Below are positions 3,380 through 38,711 of a stretch of DNA of 40,118 nucleotides, in pieces; within the stretch, counting starts at the first letter, position 1, and every line of letters starts with the position of its first letter. This stretch comes from a virus. Made by a program: the position numbers and the translations under genes. Under the pieces are notes generated by a model, which made no database searches, had not been told where the DNA came from, and was given only the letters and a program-made list of their open reading frames with translations. The stretch covers positions 1 through 40,118 of the IMG/VR virus record IMGVR_UViG_3300043436_001843. One strand, given 5' to 3'.

Positions 3380-3646
3380 CTATTTCCAATAGATAGTCTG
3401 CGGTCTACGGACAAACTCTTCCCGTTCCTTCGGGGTCATGCCACCCCACATACCATCACGGCGTTTAGTCTCAGCCTCAAACGGAAGTTGGAACTTAAGA
3501 CACTCAACTCTCACGGTGCAGGCATCGCAGAACTCTCGTGCCTTAAGCCAGTAGAAAGTACGGACATCACCTGTTGGTATCTCAGGGAAAAAGATACTGG
3601 TGTCTACGCCCTTGCAGTTTGCTTTATCTTGCCAAGCCTCGCTCAC
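3380..3646 (-). CDS. whiB: WhiB-like iron-sulfur transcriptional regulator
   Basis: 88 residues. Four cysteines in WhiB spacing (Cys11, Cys40, Cys43, Cys49; C-X28-C-X2-C-X5-C) bind a 4Fe-4S cluster, and GMWGG (65-69) is the family's Gly-Trp turn before a basic DNA-binding tail. WhiB proteins occur only in Actinobacteria and their phages, so this gene is the best host indicator in the window. They usually act by binding the primary sigma factor; phage versions can displace host WhiB proteins. GTG start, overlapping the previous stop (GTGA). It is the last gene of the long leftward unit. Target promoters are not known. Confidence 0.93.
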   Translation of the reverse strand: MSEAWQDKANCKGVDTSIFFPEIPTGDVRTFYWLKAREFCDACTVRVECLKFQLPFEAETKRRDGMWGGMTPKEREEFVRRPQTIYWK

Positions 3647-18719: not shown

Positions 18720-19843
18720 TACGAACTCAAATCGCCAATAAGCACATAATCGTTAGAGCCAACACAGAACAGTGTGGCTGCTGAATACCTATCACGAAAC
18801 TTGGGACCAGGGGTTCTGTTCACCGTTACGCTAGAAGCAACAACAGTTACTTGACCTGCGCCTATTTGTAGAAGGTCAATAGCCTGACCAGCAGACAATG
18901 CTGTTGTTCCGTTGACGGTAACAGTGATTGCTGATGCGTTACTGAGGGTCACCATCTTGCCAGCGTCACTAGATGCAAGGGTGTATGTAGTGCCTGTTTG
19001 TGCGTTTATGGTTTGGGCATTTGTAAATGTGCCTGTTGGACCTGTTGCGCCCGTTGGACCAGTTGGTCCTGTGACTGTTGAATCCGCACCAGTAGGACCT
19101 GTTGGACCTGTAGCACCAGTAGGACCTAAAGGTCCAGTCGGACCTGTAACAGTTGACGCTGCGCCTGTGGGACCCGTAGCACCCGTAGCACCCGTGTCGC
19201 CATATTCCCCTTGTGGACCAGTGGGACCAGTTGGTCCTGGAACTGTGCTGTCTGCGCCCGTAGGACCTGTAGGACCAGGGGTGCCAGGTGAACCCTGAAT
19301 ACCTTGAGGACCAGTAGGACCTTGGAAACCAATATCTCCCTTAGGTCCTGTCGGTCCTGTTGGACCAGTAGAGCCAGTTGGTCCTGTGACACCTTGGATA
19401 CCTTGTGAACCTGTAGGACCTGTAACACCTTGGAAACCTTGAGAACCTTGTGCACCAGTAGGACCTGTAGGACCTGTGACAGTAGAAGCAGCACCAGTGG
19501 CACCAGTGGCACCAGTCGGACCAGTGACACCTTGGATACCTTGGATACCTTGTGTGCCTGTTGGACCCGTGATTCCCTGCGCCCCTGTTGGTCCTGTAGG
19601 ACCAGTCGGTCCTGTGACACCTTGTGTACCAGTAGGACCTGTTGCACCTACAGCCCCTGTTGGACCTGTAACGGTAGAGGCTGCACCCGTAGGACCAGTT
19701 ACACCTTGTGGTCCTGTAGGACCTGTATTGCCCGTAGGACCTTGCGGTCCCGCACTAGAAGAACCAACAACCGTAACAACATTAGAAGTAATTAAGCCAA
19801 ATGTTTCAGTTGTCCGTGTGATGACAATGTTTGTGGTAGCCAT
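18719..19843 (-). CDS. collagen-like tail fibre
   Basis: 374 residues. About residues 33-272 are Gly-X-Y triplets, mostly [10 protein letters not shown] with GAASTV or GADSTV insertions that interrupt the helix at intervals. The N-terminal 30 residues form a beta segment for virion attachment. The C-terminal 100 residues ([20 protein letters not shown] onward) form a compact trimer cap seen on many phage fibres. It would make a rigid trimeric rod. Repeats at DNA level make it prone to length change by recombination. Confidence 0.88.
19020..19770 (-). repeat. degenerate 9-base repeat array coding Gly-X-Y triplets
   Basis: Many copies of variants of CCTGTTGGACCAGTAGGA on the plus strand, interrupted by segments such as GTAGAAGCAGCACCAGT. 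The array is coding (collagen-like), not CRISPR: the unit is 9 bases and in frame throughout. Confidence 0.85.
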
Positions 19844-20475: not shown

Positions 20476-20722
20476 TGTAATCCCCGTATCCTGCAGCCCG
20501 AAGGTCTGCTTCTTCCTGCGCTGTGATTTGATGAACATGACCACCGTGGTAGGTGATAGCGATGTCTTCTTGTTCTGATGGTTGGAACTCAGTGAACGAA
20601 CCATCGTTTAGTTTGAACACATTGCGTCCACGCCGACCTGGTTTTAAGACAGCCAAGATTCCACGCTCACCTGGCAACGCCCAGTTCACATAGTTATCTG
20701 TGGGCGGTTTAAAGGTAGTCAT
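20465..20722 (-). CDS. hypothetical structural-region protein
   Basis: 85 residues, the first gene after the capsid terminator. CTTAAG lies exactly 2 bases before its ATG on the minus strand (CTTAAGACATG), the same spacing as in the rightward operon, and there is no obvious ribosome-binding site. It could serve in the head-tail connector or capsid surface, but no family was recognised. Confidence 0.65.
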   Translation of the reverse strand: MTTFKPPTDNYVNWALPGERGILAVLKPGRRGRNVFKLNDGSFTEFQPSEQEDIAITYHGGHVHQITAQEEADLRAAGYGDYIEA

Positions 20723-20730
20723 GTCTTAAG
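20720..20730 (-). promoter_or_regulatory. start-associated element CTTAAG-AC-ATG
   Basis: The same spacing as in the rightward genes but in the leftward unit and without an AGG core before it. It lies 7 bases after the capsid terminator. Confidence 0.55.
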
Positions 20731-20736
20731 AATAGC

Positions 20737-20764
20737 AAAAGCCCCCACCTTTCGGCAGGGGCTT
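20737..20764 (-). terminator. intrinsic terminator after the major capsid gene
   Basis: On the minus strand AAGCCCCTGCC-GAAA-GGTGGGGGCTT followed by TT: an 11-bp stem with two G-U pairs, a GAAA tetraloop and a T-run (TTTT in total). It lies 21 bases after the capsid stop. It would lower expression of the tail genes relative to the capsid gene or isolate the capsid transcript. Confidence 0.9.
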
Positions 20765-20785
20765 CCACTTGGTCCTTATCGGGGA

Positions 20786-21769
20786 TTAGGCGGCGTTTGC
20801 ACCAATGCTGGATGCAGACTCAATGCGGCGGAGTGCTTCCTGACGGAACACACCGTAACCCACGAAGTGCTTCCAACCGACTGGGCGGAAACGCTGGAGG
20901 AGGTCGGTCACTGTGCCGTACACAATGGTTGGCTGCTCGCCGTACTCGCCACCCATAGAGACAGCCTTGGCAAGTGCCTGCTGACCCATGATGAGGGTAC
21001 CGTAAGAGTCACCTGTTCCTGCGGCTCCTGAACCATTGAACGCATTTGCGAAAATTGGTGCACGAGGTGATTCCATGAAACGGACACCTTCAAACATTCC
21101 AATTTCACCGTTGTAAAGAGGCATTGCGTTGGTGTACTTGTACGAGTCACGCCAGCCTGAAGCATCGGTGATGCTACGAAGGTCGTAGGAAACATCTGGG
21201 TGGATGAAGCCGACATAGTTGCCACCGATTGTTGGAACATTTGCTCCACGCAACTGTGCAACTGCACGGCGGATGTCCTTGGCGGTGATGGTGTCATCAA
21301 CATCCATGTCAACACGGGCAGCGGCAGTGTCTGAACCACCTGTTGCGTAGATGACATTTGTACCAGCCTGAAGAACATTACGAGCGATGGTGTCAATGGA
21401 CAAACCAGCGTTGTAACCAACAGCGTTAGCGGCTACTGGGTCTACAGGGAGGAACGAAGATGCACGGAGTTTCGCCGTGGTAACTGTTGCGTTACCGTAT
21501 TCTTCCAATGTCACCGTGACCTGGCTGTCGCTCATTGCGACTGGGGTCACATCTTCTGCCTCACCAAGAGCAGTTGTTGCTGCTGCAAGGTCAGCGAAGA
21601 CCGTGAACTTAACGGATGCACCTGGGTTAGTTGCGTTCGTTGCACGAACATCTGCGAACTGGTCAAAGTACATTTCTGGACGAAGGGCAAAGTATGCCAA
21701 CTTCTCAAAAGCAACCTGGTCAACCGAGAGGTTGGCGGTGCCTGTTTCTGCTGCGTAGTAATCAGCCAT
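20786..21769 (-). CDS. major capsid protein, N4 gp56-like
   Basis: 327 residues with AAGGAA upstream. ATVTTAKLRASSFLPVDP in the first half, and the C-terminal strings PTIVYGTVTDLLQRFRPVGW and HFVGYGVFRQEALRRIESAS, match the N4-gp56 capsid family (HK97 fold). It forms the icosahedral shell. Together with the scaffold gene just before it and the terminator just after it, it forms a compact high-expression unit. Confidence 0.88.
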   Translation of the reverse strand: MADYYAAETGTANLSVDQVAFEKLAYFALRPEMYFDQFADVRATNATNPGASVKFTVFADLAAATTALGEAEDVTPVAMSDSQVTVTLEEYGNATVTTAKLRASSFLPVDPVAANAVGYNAGLSIDTIARNVLQAGTNVIYATGGSDTAAARVDMDVDDTITAKDIRRAVAQLRGANVPTIGGNYVGFIHPDVSYDLRSITDASGWRDSYKYTNAMPLYNGEIGMFEGVRFMESPRAPIFANAFNGSGAAGTGDSYGTLIMGQQALAKAVSMGGEYGEQPTIVYGTVTDLLQRFRPVGWKHFVGYGVFRQEALRRIESASSIGANAA

Positions 21770-26494: not shown

Positions 26495-29400
26495 TCACCC
26501 TACCTCTGGAGGACTAAATTCTCTGCTTAAAATATTTTCCCACATAGCAGCAAACTCAGGAGTCTTAGCGATAATTTCTTCTCCCTTGTCAATCAAGATT
26601 TGACGGAAACCAGAAGCACGAGGGGATTCTTTCCAGGTGTCGTTATCCATTGACGGTACAGCCTTGGTCATTCTGTCAACTTTTAAGTTGCGGAAATCCC
26701 AATACTCTTTCAGGGCTTTGCCACCAGGTGTAGCAAGAACTTTTTTATCTCTAACCATTCTTTCAATTTCTTGAAGTTGGTCAATTTGTTCTTGGTCGCC
26801 AGACGCAGAAGGGGACCACATAGGGTAGGTCTTCTTCAACGAAGCATTTAATTTTTTCATTTCTGCTTTAAAACCAGGAGAGTTTCTTACTTCCTTTTCA
26901 GTCAAGCCTTGCTCTGCACCCATCTTAAAATACTTTTGCTGCCTTGTCCTGTTGATATTCCAAGCAAGATTTTTAAAAGCCTTGTCTTGGCGTTCCTTAA
27001 TATCTTTAGGTGCACGGTAGCCAGATGCTCGTTGTGAACTGAAAGCCTTAGGGTCGTACTCGCCTGTTTGTGGTCCGAAATATGAACCGATGAGAGGGTA
27101 ATTGTCAACGATGTGACCGTTCTCTGATTGCCAGTCTGCGAACTCTTTTGTTGCTTGCATACCTGGGTTTGCGGTTGATGCACCAGAAAGATAAATCCAT
27201 GCGCTTGGTCCATACTTTTCTAGCATGAGTGTTACAGCCTGGTTGAAGTCCCCTGTTTCTTCTTGGAACTTACGGATGTCATCCAGGACGGTGCCAGAGG
27301 TGACATTCTCTTGACCAGTTTCAACAAAGAACTTTGTCATTGACGCTGTTGGGGAGATAATACGGAATGTGGATTTAAGAAGAGAAAGCCAATCTGTTCT
27401 GGATTCAACAATGTTAAGAAGGGCTTCTCGTTCTTCAATAGTTATCGGGATACCGTCCCAGTTGTAAGCCATGTTTGTTAGCACAGAGTTTTTCAATCCT
27501 GCTTTTTGACGCTCGCTCATGTCGCCTACCATCATGGCTTGGATGTTGTCAATCAAATCAGTTGATGGCAATACCCCTGTGCGTTTTGCAATACCAAGAC
27601 CACCAGAGACAATTCCCTGTCCGAAGGCTGGAACAACATAGTCAGCAATTTTATTCTTTACTTCTGGGTCCCCGTAAGCAAAGAGAAGACTTCTTAAAGC
27701 CTGAAAATTTTCTGATTTAGGGAGCATTGAATCAACAGACATAGCACCAAAACCAAAGAACCCTGGGATTGCTTGACCAAGCAATGTCAAGTTCTTAACT
27801 GAAATTCTTTCTTCAGCGTTCAGCCCTAGCATGTCATAAACTTCTTTGCTGAATGGGACAGTGATGAAGTGTTGTTCTGAGTCTTCGTCTTTGAAAAGAA
27901 TACCGCCATCGTTATTTTGCCATGCGGCGGGCAATTCAGTTTCTTCTAATCCAGTCTTAGCAAGACTTGCTTTTTGGAGAAGTGATGGTTGCTGAATAAT
28001 TTGGCGTGTCCATACAGACCATTGTTCAAACCAGGCATCAAAGAAACCAAACAGAAGATTGTGCTTGGAACCAAAGTACGACTTCTTTGAGTAGTCGTAA
28101 AGCACATCTGCCATGCGTTGTTGACCGTGCATCTCGCCAAGTGTCTCTACTTGCTTGCGGGTAGCAGTACCTTTAGCATTTGGCAGTTGTCTCTTAATTG
28201 AATCAACGAGCCATTCTGGGGCATCTGATTTGTCAATGGCATCAAGCATCTTCGCTGCTTCGGCTGGGTCCATAACTGGCATTAGTTCAATAATGCGCTT
28301 CCATTTTTCTGATTGGCTGAATGGGTTGCGAGCGTACTTTGCTGAAGCATTTCGGTAAACACTAAACAACTTTGTAAACCAACGGTCCAACTCTTCAGAT
28401 TCTGCGATTGCCTTTGTGTAATGGAAAGGCGCAACAGCGGCGGAGCGTGGGTCGGGGAGAGCGTTTGTTTTTACATAGTCAATAAGTTCTGGGGATGCCT
28501 TGTATATATTCGTTGCGCTTTTTGTTGAAGCCGCTGCCGTACCAAGTTTTCCATTTGCTATAACTTCAATTAGTCTTGTGTCCATGCCAGAACGGACAAA
28601 GATATCTTCAACGATTGTTTGCACCCATGCCGAGACACCATCAATAGATGTCAATGGAATCATAATGCTCTCGTTGCCAAGACCTTTGCGGTAATTGTCA
28701 AGAACTGTTTTAAGGTCACCATTGAGAAAACGCTCTGGGAGAGCAACTGAATCTGCTACAGAACCAGTCAGTAGAACACCAGCGATAACACGGTATTCTT
28801 CTGATGCGTTCATACGAACAAGGTCTGTCGCTGTCCCTTCAACCCACTCGGTTGGGTTGCGTTCTTTCCAAGCATGTTGTGTAACCGTTGAGCGTTCGTA
28901 ACGCATAACACGGGGGTCTTTGCGTTCTTTAGCCATCAGACCATCTATTTGTTCGGCAACCATTTTGTTTGCGCCAGGGAGAACTGTGTCCATGCGTTCC
29001 TGGTATGTCTTGATATATCCAAGAAGTTCATCAAGCGTCCCATGCTTCGCTTCAATTTTTGCTATTTCGTTAGCAATGTCTGTTGCTTCTCCTGCTTTAC
29101 CAGCAGCAACAAGGTCGTCAAGTTTTTTTGCTAGTTCTTCAAGGTGCTCAACAATAGGGAAAATCTTTGTGATTTCTTTAGCACTTTTAATAACTGCACC
29201 GTGGGTGGTGTAGTTTACATGTCCACCTACGCCAAGAATCTTTAATGATGTATGGTCCATCCCGCCTGTGGCGGCAACACGGAGCATCTCGTCAGGAAGA
29301 ATACGGGTCACCATGCGGATAGGCAAAGGTGCACCCATAGCAACAGGCTTAAGGTAGTTGCCTTGTATCTCTGCAAGTTTATTAGTCAACTGCTGGTTCA

Positions 29401-31981
29401 GTAATTTTTCTAATGCTTCGTTGCCACGGAAAGGTTTGAATATGCGCCAAAGATTAGTTGTCTCACGGATAACTTGATTCAAAACATCAGGGTTAACCAT
29501 TAAGAAACCTTGATTCAAGAAATCAATACTGCGGATAATGTCGCCTGTTCCGTCCTCAAGCCACGGGGTTGGATATCCCATACCGATAGCGTCCATTGTC
29601 CACTGGCGGATTTCATTAGACCAGTTAGACCATGTAGATACCTGCTTAATCCAAGCCTCGTCAACACCGTTCTTTCTTAAGGCAGGTGAAAGAACTGTTT
29701 CCATCCAGTCGTTAGCCAATTCAAAGCGAGCACCTGAACCTCGTTGTGCTACTGCCCGCATAGCGGTGTTAAGCATTGCGTGTCGTTGAGCCTCAGGAAC
29801 TTTCATAATTATCATTAATCGGTTCATGTCTTTGATGGAACCCATTGGGTCATCAAAAGAAAAGAATGTTGAGCCAGGCATTGTTGCAAATTGACGGGTT
29901 CTGCCAGATACAGCCTGTGCAACTTTCTTGCCTGTTTGGTTAACCGCTTGAGTTAACCATCCTGGTACTTCTGCAACACCGTAGAAAGGGTCGGCAGAAA
30001 GAACACCATCAACAAGAACTTTGTGGATTTGGTTTAGGTCAACTTCTGTCCCTGCGGCACGGGCTGCTTGAACGATGTCGTCAATTTGTACTGCGGCACC
30101 TGGTGGGATGTTCCCAAGAAACGCATCGTATATTTGACCAGCATTGTCGTAAGAAGCAAGTTTGGCAAGAGTCCTGCGACCATCACGGGTGAATGGCATG
30201 TTGTCAATAGCCATAGGGTCAGGGCGAAGACCATCAGGTCCGTCAACTAAACCAACAGCAGATTCAAAATCTCCTCGTGAACCTGAAGGTGGGGTGTAAG
30301 CAATGTCGTTTGGTGGTGCATCAAGGGCAGCCAATGACTTTCCTTCTATCTCACGGGCTGCTAATGCTTGTGCTGCATTTTCAATTTCATCTGGGAGTAC
30401 GGTCCCAGGTGGGAGAATCCCAGCAAATCTTGGTATCTCGTCTGCCATCATTGCACCGCCTGCAGGACCGTAGCGTCCTGTTGTCGGGTCAAAAACCATG
30501 TCAATAACATCAGTTATCAATGTTGACTGGTCTGCCGCTAGGCGTTGTGCAGCCCATGCGTCACGAACGATGTCTGCTTTGCGAGCGTTGAGAAGTGTTG
30601 TTGACCCTGTGCGTGTCAGATTAAAAGTTTTCATCGCTATTCGTACAGGGTCAAAATAGATTGATGGGTCTGTGGCAACAGTGAAAACTGCGTCTGTTAA
30701 ACCAGAAAGAGCAGAAGCAACAACTCCGTCACGGTCAATCCAGTTTTCTTGGATAAGTGGTTCTACTGCTGCTCTACCAAGTGTCCATGTTTTGCCAGCA
30801 ATCTTTGGCAATCCAGCATCGTGGGCGATACGGGCTTCTTCAGCAATTTTTCCTTCAGGGAAGAAACCAGAACCAAGGTCTATTCTTTCGTTGCTTAACG
30901 CTGCTTCAGCAACTTGACTAATAACATTGCCTCGGATAACGGTGTTGATGTAATCCTCGTCACCAAAGTTAGGCATGAAAAGTGACATTTGGTTAGGGTT
31001 TAAAAGGGAAGCAAAACCATTCTTTGTGATGTTGTATTCAATGTTTGCTTTTGTGAACTGTGCTGCACCCGTGAATCCTGTGGTTAGTCCACGGGCGGCA
31101 CCACGAGGGATGTCAGCGGCAAATCGTAATTGGTCTGGGGCGAGGAATCCAAGGAAACGGAATGGAAGAGCGACAACATCTTTTGTCATTGCCATCGTGG
31201 GTCCAAGGTCTGCAGTCATTGACTGGATAAGGCTTGGCTTTGGACCTGCTTCTGCTTCATCATATGCTTCCGACAATTTCTTGAATGATGGGTACTTCAT
31301 AAAAAGCATTTGTCTTGCATCGTTCTTTTCACTGCCAGGGACTAAGCCTTTGCCAGTGAACATTGCACCATTGTAATCTGTAGAGAAATCAGCGTTTTTA
31401 ACTATTTCCCCTGTACCCCGTACTCGCTTATAACCGTCCCAGTTAGGGAGTGCCAATCTTACGACACCCATATTGCCACCGTTGCCGATAAACCATTTCA
31501 TCAGTTGGGCTTCAGATAAATTTAAAAGGTCACGAGCATCAGTGATTTCATCTCTGTTTGGTACATAGAGACTGCGCCAATAACCAGTTGGGTCAACCTT
31601 GTCGTACCACCAAGGGTCTGGGACACGAGGACCATCACGGTCTTTAGACTTTTGTTCACGGACAAACAAGTCGTTTAGTGAACCAGGGGTTCCTTTGCCA
31701 GCATCTGCTGGTGTAAAAGCAGAAAAAACATCCGTGTTGAACTTGTAGTTTTCACGAACTTTTTTTACCGAATTAGCATGAATCTGTTGTGGGTCTACTG
31801 GTACACCAGATAAACCAAGTGCTGCCTTAAGTTCTGGGTTTGTGTATTTACCGCCAGGTACAAATGAAGATACACGCTTTGCAGTTTCAGGTGTAATTGT
31901 TGATTCAAACTCTGCCCGTTTAGTTTTAAGAATTTGGGCTTCTTGTTCTTGTTGAATTAATTGTGCTTCACTCTGTCTCAT
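26495..31981 (-). CDS. giant internal virion / ejection protein
   Basis: 1828 residues, the largest gene. It starts in an ATGA overlap with the preceding gene. Mostly helical, with Ala/Arg/Lys-rich stretches, several possible membrane-active segments (LLFGFFDAWFEQW, GQAIPGFFGFGAMSV), a long N-terminal part rich in Asp/Gly, and a charged C-terminus. No lysozyme or polymerase motif was recognised. Size, position and composition fit the large ejected proteins of short-tailed phages (T7 gp16-type) that form a channel across the envelope. A polyprotein or unrecognised enzyme cannot be excluded. Confidence 0.55.
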   Translation of the reverse strand: MRQSEAQLIQQEQEAQILKTKRAEFESTITPETAKRVSSFVPGGKYTNPELKAALGLSGVPVDPQQIHANSVKKVRENYKFNTDVFSAFTPADAGKGTPGSLNDLFVREQKSKDRDGPRVPDPWWYDKVDPTGYWRSLYVPNRDEITDARDLLNLSEAQLMKWFIGNGGNMGVVRLALPNWDGYKRVRGTGEIVKNADFSTDYNGAMFTGKGLVPGSEKNDARQMLFMKYPSFKKLSEAYDEAEAGPKPSLIQSMTADLGPTMAMTKDVVALPFRFLGFLAPDQLRFAADIPRGAARGLTTGFTGAAQFTKANIEYNITKNGFASLLNPNQMSLFMPNFGDEDYINTVIRGNVISQVAEAALSNERIDLGSGFFPEGKIAEEARIAHDAGLPKIAGKTWTLGRAAVEPLIQENWIDRDGVVASALSGLTDAVFTVATDPSIYFDPVRIAMKTFNLTRTGSTTLLNARKADIVRDAWAAQRLAADQSTLITDVIDMVFDPTTGRYGPAGGAMMADEIPRFAGILPPGTVLPDEIENAAQALAAREIEGKSLAALDAPPNDIAYTPPSGSRGDFESAVGLVDGPDGLRPDPMAIDNMPFTRDGRRTLAKLASYDNAGQIYDAFLGNIPPGAAVQIDDIVQAARAAGTEVDLNQIHKVLVDGVLSADPFYGVAEVPGWLTQAVNQTGKKVAQAVSGRTRQFATMPGSTFFSFDDPMGSIKDMNRLMIIMKVPEAQRHAMLNTAMRAVAQRGSGARFELANDWMETVLSPALRKNGVDEAWIKQVSTWSNWSNEIRQWTMDAIGMGYPTPWLEDGTGDIIRSIDFLNQGFLMVNPDVLNQVIRETTNLWRIFKPFRGNEALEKLLNQQLTNKLAEIQGNYLKPVAMGAPLPIRMVTRILPDEMLRVAATGGMDHTSLKILGVGGHVNYTTHGAVIKSAKEITKIFPIVEHLEELAKKLDDLVAAGKAGEATDIANEIAKIEAKHGTLDELLGYIKTYQERMDTVLPGANKMVAEQIDGLMAKERKDPRVMRYERSTVTQHAWKERNPTEWVEGTATDLVRMNASEEYRVIAGVLLTGSVADSVALPERFLNGDLKTVLDNYRKGLGNESIMIPLTSIDGVSAWVQTIVEDIFVRSGMDTRLIEVIANGKLGTAAASTKSATNIYKASPELIDYVKTNALPDPRSAAVAPFHYTKAIAESEELDRWFTKLFSVYRNASAKYARNPFSQSEKWKRIIELMPVMDPAEAAKMLDAIDKSDAPEWLVDSIKRQLPNAKGTATRKQVETLGEMHGQQRMADVLYDYSKKSYFGSKHNLLFGFFDAWFEQWSVWTRQIIQQPSLLQKASLAKTGLEETELPAAWQNNDGGILFKDEDSEQHFITVPFSKEVYDMLGLNAEERISVKNLTLLGQAIPGFFGFGAMSVDSMLPKSENFQALRSLLFAYGDPEVKNKIADYVVPAFGQGIVSGGLGIAKRTGVLPSTDLIDNIQAMMVGDMSERQKAGLKNSVLTNMAYNWDGIPITIEEREALLNIVESRTDWLSLLKSTFRIISPTASMTKFFVETGQENVTSGTVLDDIRKFQEETGDFNQAVTLMLEKYGPSAWIYLSGASTANPGMQATKEFADWQSENGHIVDNYPLIGSYFGPQTGEYDPKAFSSQRASGYRAPKDIKERQDKAFKNLAWNINRTRQQKYFKMGAEQGLTEKEVRNSPGFKAEMKKLNASLKKTYPMWSPSASGDQEQIDQLQEIERMVRDKKVLATPGGKALKEYWDFRNLKVDRMTKAVPSMDNDTWKESPRASGFRQILIDKGEEIIAKTPEFAAMWENILSREFSPPEVG

Positions 31982-32400: not shown

Positions 32401-34224
32401 TTACATTGCCCCCATTGGTGATGCGCCCATTGGCATTGGTGCTCCTCCCATTGGAGGTGCTCCACCGCCACCAAGTTGGGCTAGAAGTGATTGAAGGTCT
32501 GGTGGTCCAGAAGGTTCTGGCATCATTGGTTGTTCTGCACCCATGCCTGGCATTGCAAGACCTGGCATTGTCTCTGGTGCACCCTCTGGTGCAGGTGTTG
32601 CCTGTCGTGCTTGCGCCCGCTTTTGTGCAGCCATGATTGCTTCAGGCAATGACATCATGTTGGAGCCAACTTTTTCTGCGATAAACGCAAGGTCATCAGG
32701 CTGGTATGGACCGTTAGGGTCCGAAGCCTGTGCCTGAATTGATTGAAGAAGTGCTGATTCAATACCTTCAGCAACGATGCGGTCCCGTTCTAGTTCTGGG
32801 TCACTGACCATTGGGTCTGATTCACGGGCTGATTCTTTGGAAATGATTCCTGCGCCAAGACGCTGACCCAATCCGATAACAAGGGAGTTCACATCGGAGC
32901 CTGCTGCTGGGAAAGATACATAGTGAAAGTCTGTTTCCCACAGTTTGTTTGGGGTGTAGTCCTTCATTCCACCACCCATACCTGGGATATAGAAAGACTT
33001 TGCGTTGTTACCCCAGTATGCCTTTTCAATAGCGATGGCTACTTTGTCTTCTTCAAGGATTGACGCAGCCAGAATCTCTTGTGATTCTTGTACTCGGAAG
33101 TCCACTGTTGCTGAAAGAACTGATTCTCCACGGCGACCTGTACGGATATTGGTACCTGATTCTCCACCGAACTCGGCAGGGATAGCACCTTCAAGACGCT
33201 CTTGGCGTTCAAGGCGGTCAAGTGCGACATCTGTTTTGTATCCTGGGTTTGTTGTTAACTGTTGGATATCTCCACCTTTAACAACTCCCAACTGTCCTGC
33301 TTTGCCGTCTGCAACCTGGAGGATTTCAGGGTTTTCTCCTGGTCGTGCTACAAGGTATTCGTCAGGGAAGATGCCACGCTCAATAGCGATTTCGGTGAGT
33401 GCTTGGAGGCGGGCACGGGTGTAGTACATACCGAGCAAACCGTCAAACTGTCCGTGTGGCTTGTCAAGTGTGATGCGTTGTGGGACGATTACTAGCGGCA
33501 TACCTGTGCGGTTGCTGATGCGTGACAGTTCTACTGCTGGTGCACCCATGTATGAGGTTCCGCTAATTGGGTCACGGTCTTTTTCATATCCCAAAACAAG
33601 GGTAACGACTTCGGTGGCACATACATATTCAAGGATTGTGAACATGTCGTCATATTGTGGTTGTCCAATACGGAGCATACCGTTGATTGCATAGCCAAAG
33701 TTTTGTGATAGCCAACGGTATGAACGGCTGTAGGAGAAAATTACATCGTCTGGTACTGGGTTATCTACATCAACAACAGGTGAGGCGAAGGTATCAAGTG
33801 GGTTGCGTAACTGCCACTCTGGGATTCGCTTATCAAAGTTAGGCTTGATATAGACAGGTGAGTTGCTATATGCAAGTAAGTGACGGGCACGGCGGCGCAT
33901 CTTCATACCCATACGGTTCTGGTCCCAGATAGCAAGCATTGCTCGCTTGCGGTCACGAGCCAATTTCATGGAACGGTCTTGACCTTCACGCAATGCTGGG
34001 AAGTATGGGGTTGGCATCGTGGAAGATACACGCATAGACATCTGGTCTAGACCCTGAACCAGTAGGTTTGCCACTGAAGACTTAGTGTTACGGTCCAGTT
34101 CGTTCAACGGAACAACAACATCGCCATTAGCAAGTTGGCGTACCTGACGCATTTGGCTGAGAATAGGACCTTGAGCAATTACCCTTTGGCGGTACAGGTC
34201 AACTATTTCTTCAACTGATTTCAT
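32401..34224 (-). CDS. portal protein
   Basis: 607 residues. The N-terminal part (RNTKSSVANLLVQGLDQMSM, ALREGQDRSMKLARDRKRAM), a central RNPLDTFASP region and the beta/alpha middle are typical of portals of short-tailed actinophages. The C-terminal 80 residues are Pro/Met/Gly-rich and disordered (PMMPEPSGPPDLQS). It forms the dodecameric DNA gate at one capsid vertex and follows terL by 47 bases. Called from order, length and composition. Confidence 0.8.
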   Translation of the reverse strand: MKSVEEIVDLYRQRVIAQGPILSQMRQVRQLANGDVVVPLNELDRNTKSSVANLLVQGLDQMSMRVSSTMPTPYFPALREGQDRSMKLARDRKRAMLAIWDQNRMGMKMRRRARHLLAYSNSPVYIKPNFDKRIPEWQLRNPLDTFASPVVDVDNPVPDDVIFSYSRSYRWLSQNFGYAINGMLRIGQPQYDDMFTILEYVCATEVVTLVLGYEKDRDPISGTSYMGAPAVELSRISNRTGMPLVIVPQRITLDKPHGQFDGLLGMYYTRARLQALTEIAIERGIFPDEYLVARPGENPEILQVADGKAGQLGVVKGGDIQQLTTNPGYKTDVALDRLERQERLEGAIPAEFGGESGTNIRTGRRGESVLSATVDFRVQESQEILAASILEEDKVAIAIEKAYWGNNAKSFYIPGMGGGMKDYTPNKLWETDFHYVSFPAAGSDVNSLVIGLGQRLGAGIISKESARESDPMVSDPELERDRIVAEGIESALLQSIQAQASDPNGPYQPDDLAFIAEKVGSNMMSLPEAIMAAQKRAQARQATPAPEGAPETMPGLAMPGMGAEQPMMPEPSGPPDLQSLLAQLGGGGAPPMGGAPMPMGASPMGAM

Positions 34225-34271: not shown

Positions 34272-36245
34272 TTACTTAAGCCAGGATGGTCGCCACTGGC
34301 GGGGCGGTGCCTTGGCTTGTGTCAAATTAGGCAAGTTAAGAATCGCCATCCATAGTGCCATCACAATGTCGGTTCCATGTTTCTTGTCTCTGTGCCACTT
34401 AGTTAGTTCATCTTGGGCTGCAAGAGTCTTCCAGTTGCCCTTCATAGATGGGAACCGTAACGCTCCAGACCTGATAACTGGGGGGAGCAGGGCTTCCACA
34501 CCAAGGGTTTCGTCAATCTTGTTGCGGTGAGTTGTGTGCCCTAAGACATTAACTCGGTGCAGTGCCTGCCATTTACGCACAAAGTCGTGGGCTAGGAGGA
34601 AACGCTGGGCTGCGTTAATCTCTACAACCCAATGGGAGATGGGGTAGCCCATATCATACGAGCGTTGTTGCCACTGGTCCATAAGACCTGAGTATTCACC
34701 TGTGCTGGTGTTGTAACCAAGTACCTCTTCGGCTGTCAACTTCACCCGTTCAAGGTCCACGATGTAGTACATGTTGGTTTGTGGCTGGTAAATAATCCAC
34801 ACAAACGCCCAGAACATAGTAGGGCTGGGGTCTACTGCCACAATAGATATCCACGGGTGGGCTAACCCCTCAGGGATATACCCTGGTTGGCGGTCAACAT
34901 CCACACACCCTGGGTAGTCAACCCCGTCTAGACCTTTACCGCCAGTAATCCAAGTACGGTCCACCAGACGAGAGTCCAAATCCAAGTCTTCTTGCTGATA
35001 AACAACTTTAAAGACATCGGGCTTGTTGTATCTGATGAAAGATAGGTCTTTCCACGGTAGACGCTTCGGGTCTAGTAGCGGTCCGTCTGGATACGGAAGA
35101 GATTTGAAAGAACGAGATTCTTTGCCCGTGTCAAGTTCCTCATAATACGCCTTATAAATAATATGACGGTACTTTCGTTGGCGAGTCGGTAGCCCTTCCT
35201 GTACATCTTCAGGGGTAATGACATCTGACCCATCATAATTGAGGTCCTCGTCAATATCGTAAGTTTCTTTGGCGAGACAATGAGCGTAAAGGTCCCCCGA
35301 ACCGAGTCTTTGCCCGACAACAGCCAGCAACCCCCCTGGGTCGCAACGGGCTTCTGCCACACCGTCCCATCTTTCCAGAAGTTTGTCCCTAGCCACGCTT
35401 TCTCTCGCATTGTCAGGAGAGGCAACATCGTCAAAGAGACATAAGTCGGCTCGGTGACCGATAAATTCTGCTTCAATTCCATACGCACGGACAGTCGGCT
35501 CTTTGTTGTCAAGCCCGTTCCCGTCAAGTTGTTCAACAACGAACTCTTCAGCCCGCCAAAGGGCACCTTTGTCCACTGGTTTGAATCTTCCATAGTCAAT
35601 CGTCAAGCATCCTTCTGCGTTTACCGCTAAACCTTTTTCCACCATACCTGGGTCTGGCTCAATCGGCATAGTTCTTTCCAAAGTTTCACGGATACGGCGG
35701 GAATACATCTTCGCCATGTTCTGTGAAACAGACCCAATCATCACACGCACCCTACGGTTACGGCAAATAGCCCACACCGCAACATCATGGAACAAGGTTG
35801 ACTTGCCCGCACCAGGGGGAACATTGATAACTACGAATTCTTTTTCCTCAGACTCCAATAGTTCTACAAGAGTTAGGGCTGCTTCTACCTGCCAAGGGGA
35901 AGGGACACGCCCAAGATAGTGGGAACGGAAGAAGTCAAAATCTTCTAACCCTCGTAAAGCATTTTCACATAACTGGTCATGGGGGATAGCAGATGGGAGG
36001 TCAATGGCATCCATGAAGTTCATGTGCTCTAGTTCCTGGCGACCACCAGAACCACGACCCGTAGCGGCTTTATGAACAGCCTCTTTACGACCCGCTTCTA
36101 ATTCTTTAGCCTTCTTAACCCAACGGGTACCTGTGTTGTAGTGGACACCAGTTGCGGCACACGCATCTTTGATGTTTCTTCCCGCAGCAATCAGGGCAAA
36201 GAACTTTGCTTTGTCTTGAGGCGGGACTGCTCGTTTAGTCCCCAT
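34272..36245 (-). CDS. terL: terminase large subunit with N-terminal helix-turn-helix
   Basis: 657 residues. An N-terminal helix-turn-helix (about 12-45, AAGRNIKDACAATGVHYNTG) resembles a small terminase DNA-binding domain. The ATPase has Walker A PPGAGKST (143-150) and Walker B LCLFDD (268-273). The C-terminal RNase H-like nuclease shows IVAVDPS and HWVVEINAAQ. It cuts and pumps DNA into the capsid. No separate small terminase gene was recognised next to it, so the fused domain may replace it. The stop codon is read as Leu-Lys-stop through a CTTAAG. Confidence 0.92.
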   Translation of the reverse strand: MGTKRAVPPQDKAKFFALIAAGRNIKDACAATGVHYNTGTRWVKKAKELEAGRKEAVHKAATGRGSGGRQELEHMNFMDAIDLPSAIPHDQLCENALRGLEDFDFFRSHYLGRVPSPWQVEAALTLVELLESEEKEFVVINVPPGAGKSTLFHDVAVWAICRNRRVRVMIGSVSQNMAKMYSRRIRETLERTMPIEPDPGMVEKGLAVNAEGCLTIDYGRFKPVDKGALWRAEEFVVEQLDGNGLDNKEPTVRAYGIEAEFIGHRADLCLFDDVASPDNARESVARDKLLERWDGVAEARCDPGGLLAVVGQRLGSGDLYAHCLAKETYDIDEDLNYDGSDVITPEDVQEGLPTRQRKYRHIIYKAYYEELDTGKESRSFKSLPYPDGPLLDPKRLPWKDLSFIRYNKPDVFKVVYQQEDLDLDSRLVDRTWITGGKGLDGVDYPGCVDVDRQPGYIPEGLAHPWISIVAVDPSPTMFWAFVWIIYQPQTNMYYIVDLERVKLTAEEVLGYNTSTGEYSGLMDQWQQRSYDMGYPISHWVVEINAAQRFLLAHDFVRKWQALHRVNVLGHTTHRNKIDETLGVEALLPPVIRSGALRFPSMKGNWKTLAAQDELTKWHRDKKHGTDIVMALWMAILNLPNLTQAKAPPRQWRPSWLK

Positions 36246-36254
36246 AGGGTTATT

Positions 36255-36521
36255 CTACCACTTAACTTTGTCAGCCCAGTATGCGGCAGACATTTTCCCT
36301 TTAGCAATGTTTTTAGCATGGCGGTCTTTGAACGCTTTGTTACGGGCAGAGCCATCAGGAGAACCTGACACACCTTGCTGACCAAAACGAATTGTCTTCA
36401 CTTGGTCGCCAACTTTGGCTACAACAACATGAGATTTAGTTGGGTGCTTAGGGGTTGCCTTCGGCTGGTTGAACCCTGACACTCCTGCCCGTTCAAGTCG
36501 GGAATCCTTCTTCGCTGCCAT
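36255..36521 (-). CDS. conserved basic phage protein upstream of terL
   Basis: 88 residues. AGVSGFNQPKATPKHPTKSH, VKTIRFGQQGVSGSP and the end KMSAAYWADKVKW are strongly conserved strings that I recall from many tailed phages (possibly the DUF6321 group; from memory). It is basic and probably binds DNA or the virion. It lies just before terL in the packaging region and shares one base with the preceding gene. Confidence 0.75.
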   Translation of the reverse strand: MAAKKDSRLERAGVSGFNQPKATPKHPTKSHVVVAKVGDQVKTIRFGQQGVSGSPDGSARNKAFKDRHAKNIAKGKMSAAYWADKVKW

Positions 36522-36946
36522 TACTTCTTTTTCTTAGGCTTTGGGAAAGGAACAACTTTTCCGTTGGCATCCATGCCACGGATTTCAGTAGAAATACGCT
36601 TATAGGCTGCCTTATCTGGACCGCTTTTCATCAAGCCTTTCATGCCTGAAGATTTACCAGACCAAAAATCCATCTTCGGGCTGTTTGCTTCAAGGTAATC
36701 CCAAATAGGTTGCTGACCTTTGAAAGAGCCTGTTGACTTTGAATACTTCATAGGGTCAACACCCTTAGATTCAAGAACCTTCTTTGCTGCGTTCCATGTT
36801 GCATCTCCCTTTTTAAAGTAGAGAGGAGCAGTGGATGCGCCCATACCTGAACGACCTGCCGCATCTGTGCGGGCTGCCTTCTTCTTGTCGGCTTCTTCCT
36901 TCATACGGAAGTCTGCTGCTGATGGGGTTTTCTTTTTTGCTGCCAT
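36521..36946 (-). CDS. basic hypothetical protein, first gene of the leftward unit
   Basis: 141 residues, Lys-rich at both ends (AAKKKTPSA at the start, PKPKKKK at the end) around a Gly/Ser-rich centre. It could be a small terminase substitute or a DNA-bound virion protein, since it comes before terL, but there is no diagnostic motif. As the first leftward gene it lies opposite the promoter-like sequence at 36948-36975, so both strands are used there. Confidence 0.65.
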   Translation of the reverse strand: MAAKKKTPSAADFRMKEEADKKKAARTDAAGRSGMGASTAPLYFKKGDATWNAAKKVLESKGVDPMKYSKSTGSFKGQQPIWDYLEANSPKMDFWSGKSSGMKGLMKSGPDKAAYKRISTEIRGMDANGKVVPFPKPKKKK

Positions 36947-36947
36947 G

Positions 36948-36975
36948 TTGCAAACGATAACACACCTGCTACACT
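36948..36975 (+). promoter_or_regulatory. rightward promoter-like sequence before the RNA candidate
   Basis: TTGCAA (36948-36953), 16 bases, TACACT (36970-36975): moderate matches to -35 and -10. A short inverted repeat ACAC-TCC-GTGT (about 36971-36981) covers the -10, echoing the ACACTA/TAGTGT operator at 987-1000. Transcription would start near 36983, just before the structured stretch. Confidence 0.45.
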
Positions 36976-36982
36976 CCGTGTC

Positions 36983-37354
36983 ACAACTTCACTCTCGCAG
37001 GGCTGTATACCGATTGCATGGTACGGGGCAATTCACACCAGGGAACTGGGGTAGATGAACCCTGCAATCAAGCACATCTGAAAAAGATGGTTGTGCCCCT
37101 ATTGCGTAAGAGGTTCAAGCAGCGTTGAATGAACGACTAAACATTTCTACCTTTCAGGTGTCGGCTAAAAGAACTTGGCTACGGCGACCTTGGTATCAGT
37201 TAGATACCTAAACCGTGGGGGAGGCTAATCCATGACTGCTAACCATCCAGTTCCACCTACGGTGGCTAACGCCCTCGGCTACGCCATCGGTTGTTTGCAA
37301 AGAAGTGAGGCACAAGGTTTCAGATAAACTTCCAAGTCAGTGGTTTTCTTTTTT
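36983..37354 (+). ncRNA. candidate structured non-coding RNA, about 370 nt
   Basis: No coding potential but dense self-complementarity: a long-range stem GGGGCA (37025-37030) with TGCCCC (37094-37099), enclosing hairpins CAGGG/CCCTG (37039-37064) and CATCT-GAAAA-AGATG (37075-37089). Farther on come GTTCA/TGAAC (37113-37134), GGTATC-AGTTA-GATACC (37192-37208) and ACCGTGG/CCAC-CT-ACGGT (37212-37263). It ends in a T-rich run (37344-37354). A promoter-like sequence precedes it. It matches no RNA family I know (tmRNA, RNase P, 6S and group I intron cores were looked for). The opposite strand, as a leader of the late transcript, is the alternative. Confidence 0.55.
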
Positions 37355-37458
37355 CATCTTCTCTGCCACTTAGGTCGGTAGTTAACAAGCCCGCCAGCCA
37401 ACCGTACAACAACCCACCCGCACACCACACCAGTCACACACAAAAAGAGTGAGTCCAT
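37354..37458 (-). CDS. possible 34-residue membrane peptide
   Basis: ATG at 37458, TGA at 37354-37356. It would have one hydrophobic helix (LFLCVTGVVCGWVVVRLAGG) and a basic end (RPKWQRR). The frame is open upstream to 37707, but that part is low-complexity and unlikely to be translated. There is no clear ribosome-binding site. It ends exactly where the RNA candidate's T-run begins, so it may be chance. Confidence 0.3.
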   Translation of the reverse strand: MDSLFLCVTGVVCGWVVVRLAGGLVNYRPKWQRR

Positions 37459-37596
37459 CTTTGTCACATACCACACCCCCACACCCACGGGTGCCTCGGC
37501 AGAGGGCGGGTTCGGGTCTGCATACCCCCTAGGGTATCCCCGATTAGACCGATGGTCTATGAAAATAACATAACTAACATTATGGGCGGAGGCATA

Positions 37597-37633
37597 CCCC
37601 CCACGGTACCCCGCCGAAATACCCCCCTCCCCC
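37597..37633 (-). other. G-quadruplex-capable tract
   Basis: On the minus strand there are four G-runs (5, 6, 4 and 6 Gs) separated by 1, 9 and 6 bases. This meets the usual pattern for a stable G-quadruplex. It lies within the control region, 2 bases from the first iron-box-like palindrome. Confidence 0.5.
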
Positions 37634-37634
37634 T

Positions 37635-37652
37635 TGTTAGGTGAGCCTAACA
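37635..37652. promoter_or_regulatory. iron-box-like palindrome, copy 1
   Basis: TGTTAGGTGAGCCTAACA: 7-bp perfect arms around 4 bases. TTAGGT-AGCCTAAC matches 14 of the 19 positions of the DtxR/IdeR consensus TTAGGTTAGCCTAACCTAA. Second copy 101 bases to the right. Confidence 0.5.
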
Positions 37653-37735
37653 CTTTCCGCATGGTGGAGAGTCGTGGGCTGTTCGGGCGGTTGCCTTGTG
37701 CTTGCAATAGTTAGCACTGTGTTTGCAAGTGTTGT

Positions 37736-37753
37736 TGTTAGGTGTGCCTAACA
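37736..37753. promoter_or_regulatory. iron-box-like palindrome, copy 2
   Basis: TGTTAGGTGTGCCTAACA, identical to copy 1 except one loop base. It is followed 5 bases later by a CTTAAG (37758). Arms conserved twice in non-coding DNA point to a bound dimer. Confidence 0.5.
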
Positions 37754-37956
37754 CTGTCTTAAGGCTTGCCCGTTGTCTCATATTGTGGGAATCCTCTTAG
37801 CGGGCTTGAGACCCCCTCTACTCGTGAGTAACCCCCCTTGCGCATGGAAGGGTACCTAATAATTGCGTCATGACGATATTAATTTCCCCCTATCTTTATT
37901 AGTTGCACACTACAAATAGAAATATTGGAAATGGGGTAGCGGTGAGCGTTGTGAGG

Positions 37957-37972
37957 GTGTACCGTGGTACAC
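37957..37972. promoter_or_regulatory. operator-like palindrome upstream of the rightward operon
   Basis: GTGTACC-GT-GGTACAC, perfect 7-bp arms, 41 bases before the ATG at 38013. Immediately after it a GGGGGA-ACC-TCCCCC hairpin (37979-37993) precedes the ribosome-binding site. The promoter boxes themselves are not clear. Confidence 0.55.
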
Positions 37973-38012
37973 AACAGCGGGGGAACCTCCCCCACTACCG
38001 AAGGGGTAGAGA

Positions 38013-38711
38013 ATGACAACAGCAACCACGGAGGCAACGGAGACGGTGAGTCTCTCCCGCCTCATTGAGACACTCACCGAGGGTGCCCGCCAACTTGCGG
38101 AGCATGCCGAGGAACTTGACGGCACCGTAATCCCTCAAGTTCTCGTGACAGTGGCACGAGATGAAGAGCGCAAGGGTGGCGGACTTAAGTTAGGACATAT
38201 CACCACGGTTCCCGCATGGGAATCAACCGAGGGCGAGGGGTTCCTAGAGTTGCTCATAACGGGGCAAGGACTTACACGAGGCGGGCGGGCAGTGTTCGGA
38301 ACACTTGCCCACGAGATGTCTCACGCCTACAACATTGCGAAGGGCATCAAGGACACCGACACCAACGGCAGACACAACAAGCGTTTCAAGGACACCGCCG
38401 AACGAGTGTTCGGGCTTGAGATTAGTAATCACAAGTCAATCGGGTGGAGCCTCACCGAGGTTCCCGACACCACCGCCGAATTGTGGGCGGGACTCATTGC
38501 CGAAATTGACGAGGCGATAACGGCGGTAGCGGGCGGACTTAAGACAGCACCTAAGACGAAGAAGAGGAACAAGAACCTACTTAAGGCAGTGTGTGAGTGT
38601 GGCAAGGTAATCCGTGCTAGTCGGACAGTGTTGGAAGAGTGCGAACCCCTCTGCAAGGTATGCGAGACAGTGTTCAAGGCAGAGGGCGAAGAAGAAGAGG
38701 GGGAGGACTAG
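38013..38711 (+). CDS. SprT-like zinc metalloprotease with zinc ribbon
   Basis: 232 residues, GAAGGGG 7 bases before the ATG. HEMSH (100-104) is the HExxH zinc-protease motif, within TLAHEMSHAYNIAKGIKD and followed by NGRHNKRFKDTAERVFGL, as in SprT-like domains. The C-terminal 45 residues have four Cys (CECG and CKVC, about 194-217), a zinc ribbon, and an acidic tail. SprT-like proteases cleave proteins on DNA; a phage copy could remove DNA-bound host proteins early in infection. First gene of the rightward unit. CTTAAG occurs three times in frame. Confidence 0.8.
   Translation: MTTATTEATETVSLSRLIETLTEGARQLAEHAEELDGTVIPQVLVTVARDEERKGGGLKLGHITTVPAWESTEGEGFLELLITGQGLTRGGRAVFGTLAHEMSHAYNIAKGIKDTDTNGRHNKRFKDTAERVFGLEISNHKSIGWSLTEVPDTTAELWAGLIAEIDEAITAVAGGLKTAPKTKKRNKNLLKAVCECGKVIRASRTVLEECEPLCKVCETVFKAEGEEEEGED

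Follow-up and report, generated by a model that had tools for sequence, protein, structure and literature searches.

Among the phage RNAs that invite comparison with the one described here, the pRNA of phi29 is similar in size and the put RNAs of HK022 are far smaller. GOLLD and ROOL are elaborate, pseudoknotted, phage-encoded RNAs, known largely from metagenomes, the function of which is not known (PMC12286853). Vibrio phage ICP1 produces an abundant non-coding RNA of ∼800 nt, a strong transcript from a space without ORFs and also with no known function (PMC7567579).

Here we analyse a viral stretch of 40,118 nucleotides (IMG/VR record IMGVR_UViG_3300043436_001843, positions 1 to 40,118), referred to as the window. 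A first-pass annotation, made from the letters alone, had picked out positions 36983-37354 as a candidate structured non-coding RNA. Covariation and an independent model match, both on the + strand, indicate that this element is almost certainly a real structured RNA. As judged by sequence comparison, it belongs to a previously uncatalogued family, found so far solely in uncultured phages of Actinobacteria.

The late genes of the window run leftward: TerL at 34272-36245 (phrog_38), the portal at 32401-34224 (phrog_104) and the capsid at 20786-21769 (phrog_1357). The leftward genes also include tail fibre genes and recombination genes (RecE-like and annealing protein). The rightward genes begin at 38013 and are small and mostly without an assigned role; a divergent gap (36947-38012) parts the two gene directions. 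A WhiB gene at 3380-3646 (PF02467, E = 1.5e-15) indicates an actinobacterial host. Remote relatives of some late proteins occur in Streptomyces phages and in two phages of Nanopelagicales, E7 and F5 (PMC10202952).

Several other features of the window can be recorded here. Beside TerL, 36255-36521 (− strand) encodes an 88-aa protein with 80-88% identity to proteins from alphaproteobacterial phages (Roseobacter CRP-4 and Celeribacter P12053L) and 78% identity to one from Nanopelagicales phage F5, whereas the F5 TerL is merely 25% identical; such cross-host conservation is odd for a phage protein. TerL itself (− strand) has an N-terminal HTH that matches the small-terminase and HTH_23 profiles; a separate small subunit was not recognised, and TerL is perhaps a fused terminase. 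Downstream of the portal gene, 26495-31981 (− strand) encodes an 1828-aa protein without a PHROG or Pfam match; in Streptomyces phages, too, a giant gene with no assigned function occupies a similar position. Within the gap, short blocks in 37407-37640 (for example 37561-37590) recur in many relatives amid palindrome-like ATACCCCC/GGGTAT repeats, and are possible early promoters, operators or an origin.

Anatomy of the RNA and evidence for its structure

IMG/VR holds 352 relatives of the window TerL, 80 of which were kept. Beside TerL in most of these 80, the stretch from 36997 to about 37354 is 69-88% conserved; the other 600 nt of the gap is mostly unconserved. The features are as follows.

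36948-36975, + strand: candidate promoter; −35 TTGCAA at 36948-36953, a 16-nt spacer and an extended −10, TGCTACACT, at 36967-36975
36982-37354, + strand: proposed transcribed RNA with predicted ends, delimited by the promoter position and the limits of conservation; the end at the T-run is a guess
36997-37229, + strand: family core; match to covariance model R1 with 117.8 bits, E = 4e-40, model positions 1-177 of 177
37002-37029, + strand: hairpin P1; GCU 37002-37004 with GGC 37027-37029, and UACC 37008-37011 with GGUA 37020-37023
37014-37122, + strand: pseudoknot; UUGC 37014-37017 in the P1 loop with GCAG 37119-37122
37038-37049, + strand: hairpin P2, CCAG-GGAA-CUGG, with a GNRA loop (E < 0.05, 100% paired)
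37056-37117, + strand: helix P3; UGAAC 37056-37060 with GUUCA 37113-37117, four covarying pairs
37128-37145, + strand: hairpin P4, AAUG with CAUU; a conserved AACG opens the loop
37157-37189, + strand: near-invariant signature GGUGUCGGCUAA...UUGGCUACGGCGACC and hairpin P5
37192-37208, + strand: hairpin P6, GGUAUC with GAUACC, four covarying pairs
37213-37226, + strand: conserved 3' element CCGUGGGGGAGGCU; GUGGGGG is invariant in the 24 model sequences
37253-37290, + strand: 3' module, optional in the family; P7 37253-37265 and P8 37272-37290
37344-37354, + strand: T-run 3' of the 3' module, read directly from the sequence

The region as a whole is ∼370 nt long with a 233-nt core inside. Compact members of the family have a core of ∼175 nt; that of the window is longer because P3 carries an insert, with an inner hairpin at 37072-37096, which the compact members lack. 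The first-pass annotation had counted six helices; the near-perfect helices confirmed here are P1, P2, P3 (enclosing inner hairpins), P4, P6, P7 and P8. The pairs of P1 covary at E < 0.05 and are formed in 100% of the 24 compact members. The GCAG of the pseudoknot sits in an AGCAGCG linker and its pairing is found in 24 of the 24 compact members, with the second pair being UA in 20 and CG in four; the register is identical across 82 sequences. Similarly, the variable base S in GGCSACC is partnered by its counterpart S in AASYGUGG (37213), as GC in 17 cases and CG in seven, with no mismatches. The 3' module (P7 and P8) is present in 50 of 115 distinct relatives, and covariation in P7 is a by-eye reading of the alignment. 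A 5' hairpin, P0 (GGGA loop, several alternative stems), is found in 59 of 101 relatives and is absent from the window.

The first-pass annotation had proposed folding both strands against shuffled controls. The energy of the single sequence proved to be no lower than that of shuffled sequence (z = −0.81 on the + strand and +0.07 on the − strand). Genuine structured RNAs often have unremarkable energies, and an energy criterion would wrongly have dismissed this one; the folding energy being uninformative, comparative evidence was sought, and the actual proof is covariation. A set of 82 non-redundant sequences (168 columns) was examined by a G-test with APC, against a null of alignments simulated along the tree from the substitutions observed. 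The alignment was anchored by hairpin-seeking rules that could favour P2 and P4, and gave 17 pairs at E < 0.05 in P1, P2, P3, P4 and P6, with 91-100% standard pairs; the covariation suggested as a check was thus found in the homologues. The few remaining pairs below 0.05 are off-register neighbours inside the same helices. As an independent check, a MAFFT alignment of the 24 compact members had 97.4% paired cells, compared with 80.2% on shuffling and 27-43% when the partners were slid, and 161 double changes versus 49. Covariation beyond phylogeny is found on one strand, and the + strand alone fits the wobble pairs and GNRA loops. Model R1 was built from 24 distant compact members, leaving out the window and its close group.

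A reading without any RNA, in which the helices arose by chance or the conserved stretch serves as DNA or as a gene, might seem to be favoured by a minimum free energy no lower than that of shuffled sequence and, in the case of a gene, by a 31-codon window ORF that has a ribosome-binding site. The compensatory changes, however, lie far above the phylogenetic null, the wobble pairs and GNRA loops suit the + strand only, and chance is countered by the independent match at 4e-40. The ORF (at 37231, with a good ribosome-binding site) was rejected as a gene as it is unconserved, being absent in the relatives, and the core lengths represent all three classes modulo 3; the lack of coding potential read from the letters alone was thus borne out. 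Such an explanation is extremely improbable: it is refuted unless the alignments are grossly wrong, an error that the slid controls exclude.

A promoter-like sequence ahead of 36983 had also been noted, and it can be identified with TTGCAA-16-TGCTACACT, the extended −10 of which is conserved in relatives. Among 101 distinct relatives, 76 have TGnTAnnnT ahead of the core, against 5.7 after shuffling, and 49 have a −35 together with a −10, against 3.7; a strict promoter scan of the window did not call the site at 36948-36975. The conserved sequence directly upstream thus appears to be a sigma-70-like promoter, from the position of which a start near 36982 is predicted. The T-run in which the element was said to end is present, without a preceding hairpin, and no intrinsic terminator was called in the window scan. 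A conserved intrinsic terminator was not found in the family either (23 of 202 downstream windows in the sense direction versus 28 antisense); the 3' end at the T-run is therefore provisional.

Distribution and exchange between lineages

The RNA is present at 50 of the 51 TerL-selected loci with at least 1.5 kb of upstream sequence. It lies divergent from TerL, 0.1-3.4 kb upstream, at 102 of 102 loci with at least 2.6 kb, a set that includes loci retrieved through the RNA itself. The sole TerL-selected exception has 1817 nt upstream and no RNA by either profile HMM or covariance model. By profile HMM, 278 of 349 loci contain the RNA, and some loci overlap on the same contig; distinct RNA sequences with a TerL label number at least 162. 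The signature pattern GGUGUCGGCUAA...UGGCUACGGCGACC has at least 119 matching stretches and a variant pattern has 70. Eight contigs end in or beside the RNA gene; such ends are expected where a conserved stretch breaks assemblies, and may also mark a physical genome end.

The first-pass annotation had recognised no RNA class, and the Rfam search that it suggested agrees. None of the 4227 families of Rfam 15 was above the gathering threshold in the window, nothing of note appeared at E ≤ 10 over 36900-38050, and the RNA in 14 relatives gave no match. Together with the covariation, the conserved promoter and the 278 loci, this strongly supports a structured non-coding RNA outside the known classes. 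ARAGORN found no tRNA or tmRNA in the window. A scan of 84,980 prokaryote species genomes for the exact signature gave no match (such a scan may miss variants), and bacterial genomes had no TerL relatives. GenBank phages gave nothing past a 24-nt chance match, and plasmids gave no match to a composite probe of the 5' half. The RNA was not found in the isolated phages E7 and F5 (OX376640 and OX376641) or in the Streptomyces phages WRightOn and Immanuel3; with filters off, E7 and F5 gave 12-14-bit matches in a G-rich repeat-like stretch with poor alignment. As these two isolated Nanopelagicales phages lack the RNA, it is dispensable for some phages of such hosts. No prior description was found in the open-access literature searched.

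The RNA is also carried by phages with other packaging and capsid genes. A genome of 42,769 bp (G001) has no TerL of the window type; its TerL is phrog_979/2, its portal phrog_156 and its capsid phrog_14242. BLASTP against the window gave E = 2.5 for TerL and E = 15 for the capsid, that is, no similarity, and the portal is likewise unrelated. G001 nonetheless carries the RNA at 155-161 bits. In this second TerL lineage, the RNA was found in 25 of 80 loci, among them most loci that combine long upstream sequence with a closer TerL, and is again divergent from TerL, about 2.6-3.5 kb upstream; the covariance model adds diverged copies in two loci. Three further sequences have the RNA and neither TerL in the part examined. 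RNAs from the two lineages reach 86% identity over 183 nt. When the TerL label is mapped onto an 86-RNA tree, at least four changes are required, all forced by well supported branches, and constraining the second-lineage RNAs together is rejected (AU p = 0.016). These computations show, at the level of sequence, that the RNA has been exchanged repeatedly between at least two unrelated phage lineages. Of the window proteins, WhiB alone has a homologue in every carrier compared. The window and G001 have tail/adsorption genes in common (one with 76% identity over 346 aa), and the hosts of the two phages therefore probably overlap.

A second RNA architecture was observed at seven loci and in both TerL lineages. 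Its 5' half differs (GUGGCCGGAAACGGGGACCGAC...CCCCAUGCA...GAUACGU), and the 3' signature and GNRA hairpin are retained. A likeness of three short motifs to 23S rRNA was rejected: their order differs and the second subtype lacks one motif. One contig of 79,213 bp encodes the two unrelated TerL proteins and is roughly as long as two such phages combined; it probably arose by chimaeric assembly of one lineage with the other.

Possible roles of the RNA

Packaging, replication and host regulation had been offered as roles by the first-pass annotation. We favour host regulation, since the RNA is shared by, and has moved between, phages whose TerL, portal and capsid are unrelated, and give a probability of about 0.5 to the RNA acting in trans on the host. 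Host RNA polymerase would make the RNA early in infection as a separate transcript, which would then act in trans on a host component shared among actinobacterial hosts, most likely a protein or ribonucleoprotein that takes part in transcription or translation; carrying the RNA would benefit every phage that infects those hosts. Swapping between unrelated phages makes an action on the host during infection probable, and, taken with the RNA's own promoter and its free-standing position in G001, suggests that the action is in trans and early. In G001, a terminator (19436-19454 plus a T-tail) stands behind the RNA, and the next conserved gene downstream (20519-20836) is on the opposite strand. 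A link to the host is further suggested by the WhiB encoded by all carriers compared and by the tail/adsorption genes shared with G001. Against a host role, the TerL neighbourhood is constant in the window lineage, which also fits packaging, a conserved terminator is lacking and the two isolated Nanopelagicales phages do without the RNA.

The constant TerL neighbourhood keeps packaging under consideration: like phi29 pRNA, the RNA might bind the phage's own portal/terminase motor, or it might mark a genome end or packaging start. The divergent placement upstream of TerL (102 of 102 loci in the window lineage, 50 of 51 when TerL-selected) recurs in the second lineage, and the small-subunit-like HTH of TerL, with no separate small subunit recognised, would also suit such a role. 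We nevertheless regard it as unlikely, as the RNA is exchanged between lineages without BLASTP similarity in TerL, portal or capsid, its host-like sigma-70 promoter suggests early expression, and the phi29 pRNA family found no match in the Rfam search. We are more doubtful still of a leader acting in cis on the rightward early operon, whether by antitermination like the put RNA of HK022 or by sensing a ligand. The window RNA does head a rightward gene block, co-directional with the genes from 38013 onward, with no hairpin terminator behind it; yet more than 600 nt, mostly unconserved, separate the RNA from the first gene, and G001 has the terminator and opposite-strand gene described above. 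A conserved co-directional gene immediately downstream, as expected of a riboswitch or cis leader, is thus not found; a leader function in the window lineage alone is possible. Lower again we place a link to replication, such as a primer or copy-control RNA acting at a phage origin in the divergent gap. Short conserved palindromic blocks do occur in that gap and the RNA lies near an SSB gene in one lineage; however, no origin was identified, the placement of the RNA differs between lineages and the conserved blocks downstream are outside the RNA.

Returning to an action on the host, a bolder proposal, which we put forward tentatively and would sooner doubt than accept, is that the RNA is a portable, RNA-only host-takeover factor. 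It would constitute a new functional class, exchanged by unrelated actinophages, that shuts down or diverts a machine universal in Actinobacteria. Its target would be RNA polymerase, the ribosome or RNA decay, and it would act by its shape and not by antisense pairing.

The analysis adds a well supported family to the few phage structured RNAs, carried by viruses whose hosts are probably abundant aquatic Actinobacteria. Exchange across unrelated packaging and capsid genes, with shared adsorption genes, points to a host-acting RNA, of which documented cases are rare. With the alignment and model, metatranscriptome detection, structure determination and pull-downs should be straightforward.

Comparison with known phage RNAs

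Like the put RNAs of HK022, the RNA is structured and stands before early phage genes, in the window lineage only; put RNAs act in cis, whereas the RNA of G001 has a terminator behind it and then a gene on the other strand. The resemblance to phi29 pRNA is a gene near packaging functions, in the window lineage. Unlike that RNA, which is of a type specific to a single packaging motor (ATPase and portal), the present one has no Rfam match and is common to phages with unrelated TerL and portal, which speaks against the phi29 type. The ICP1 RNA is also a phage structured RNA without a known function; it is longer, comes from another host and is likened here by description and not by sequence.

There is also a resemblance to GOLLD and ROOL: the window RNA is likewise phage-encoded, structured, pseudoknotted and known largely from metagenomes, with no assigned function. 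GOLLD and ROOL exceed roughly 500-800 nt and are often near tRNA islands and in prophages, whereas the window RNA is about 175-370 nt, has its own fold, is in a window without tRNA and has an exact signature that is absent from bacterial genomes. The GOLLD and ROOL models, both in Rfam, showed no homology to the RNA of the window or of the 14 relatives. We would thus place it among the phage structured RNAs without a known function, as a new family within that kind.
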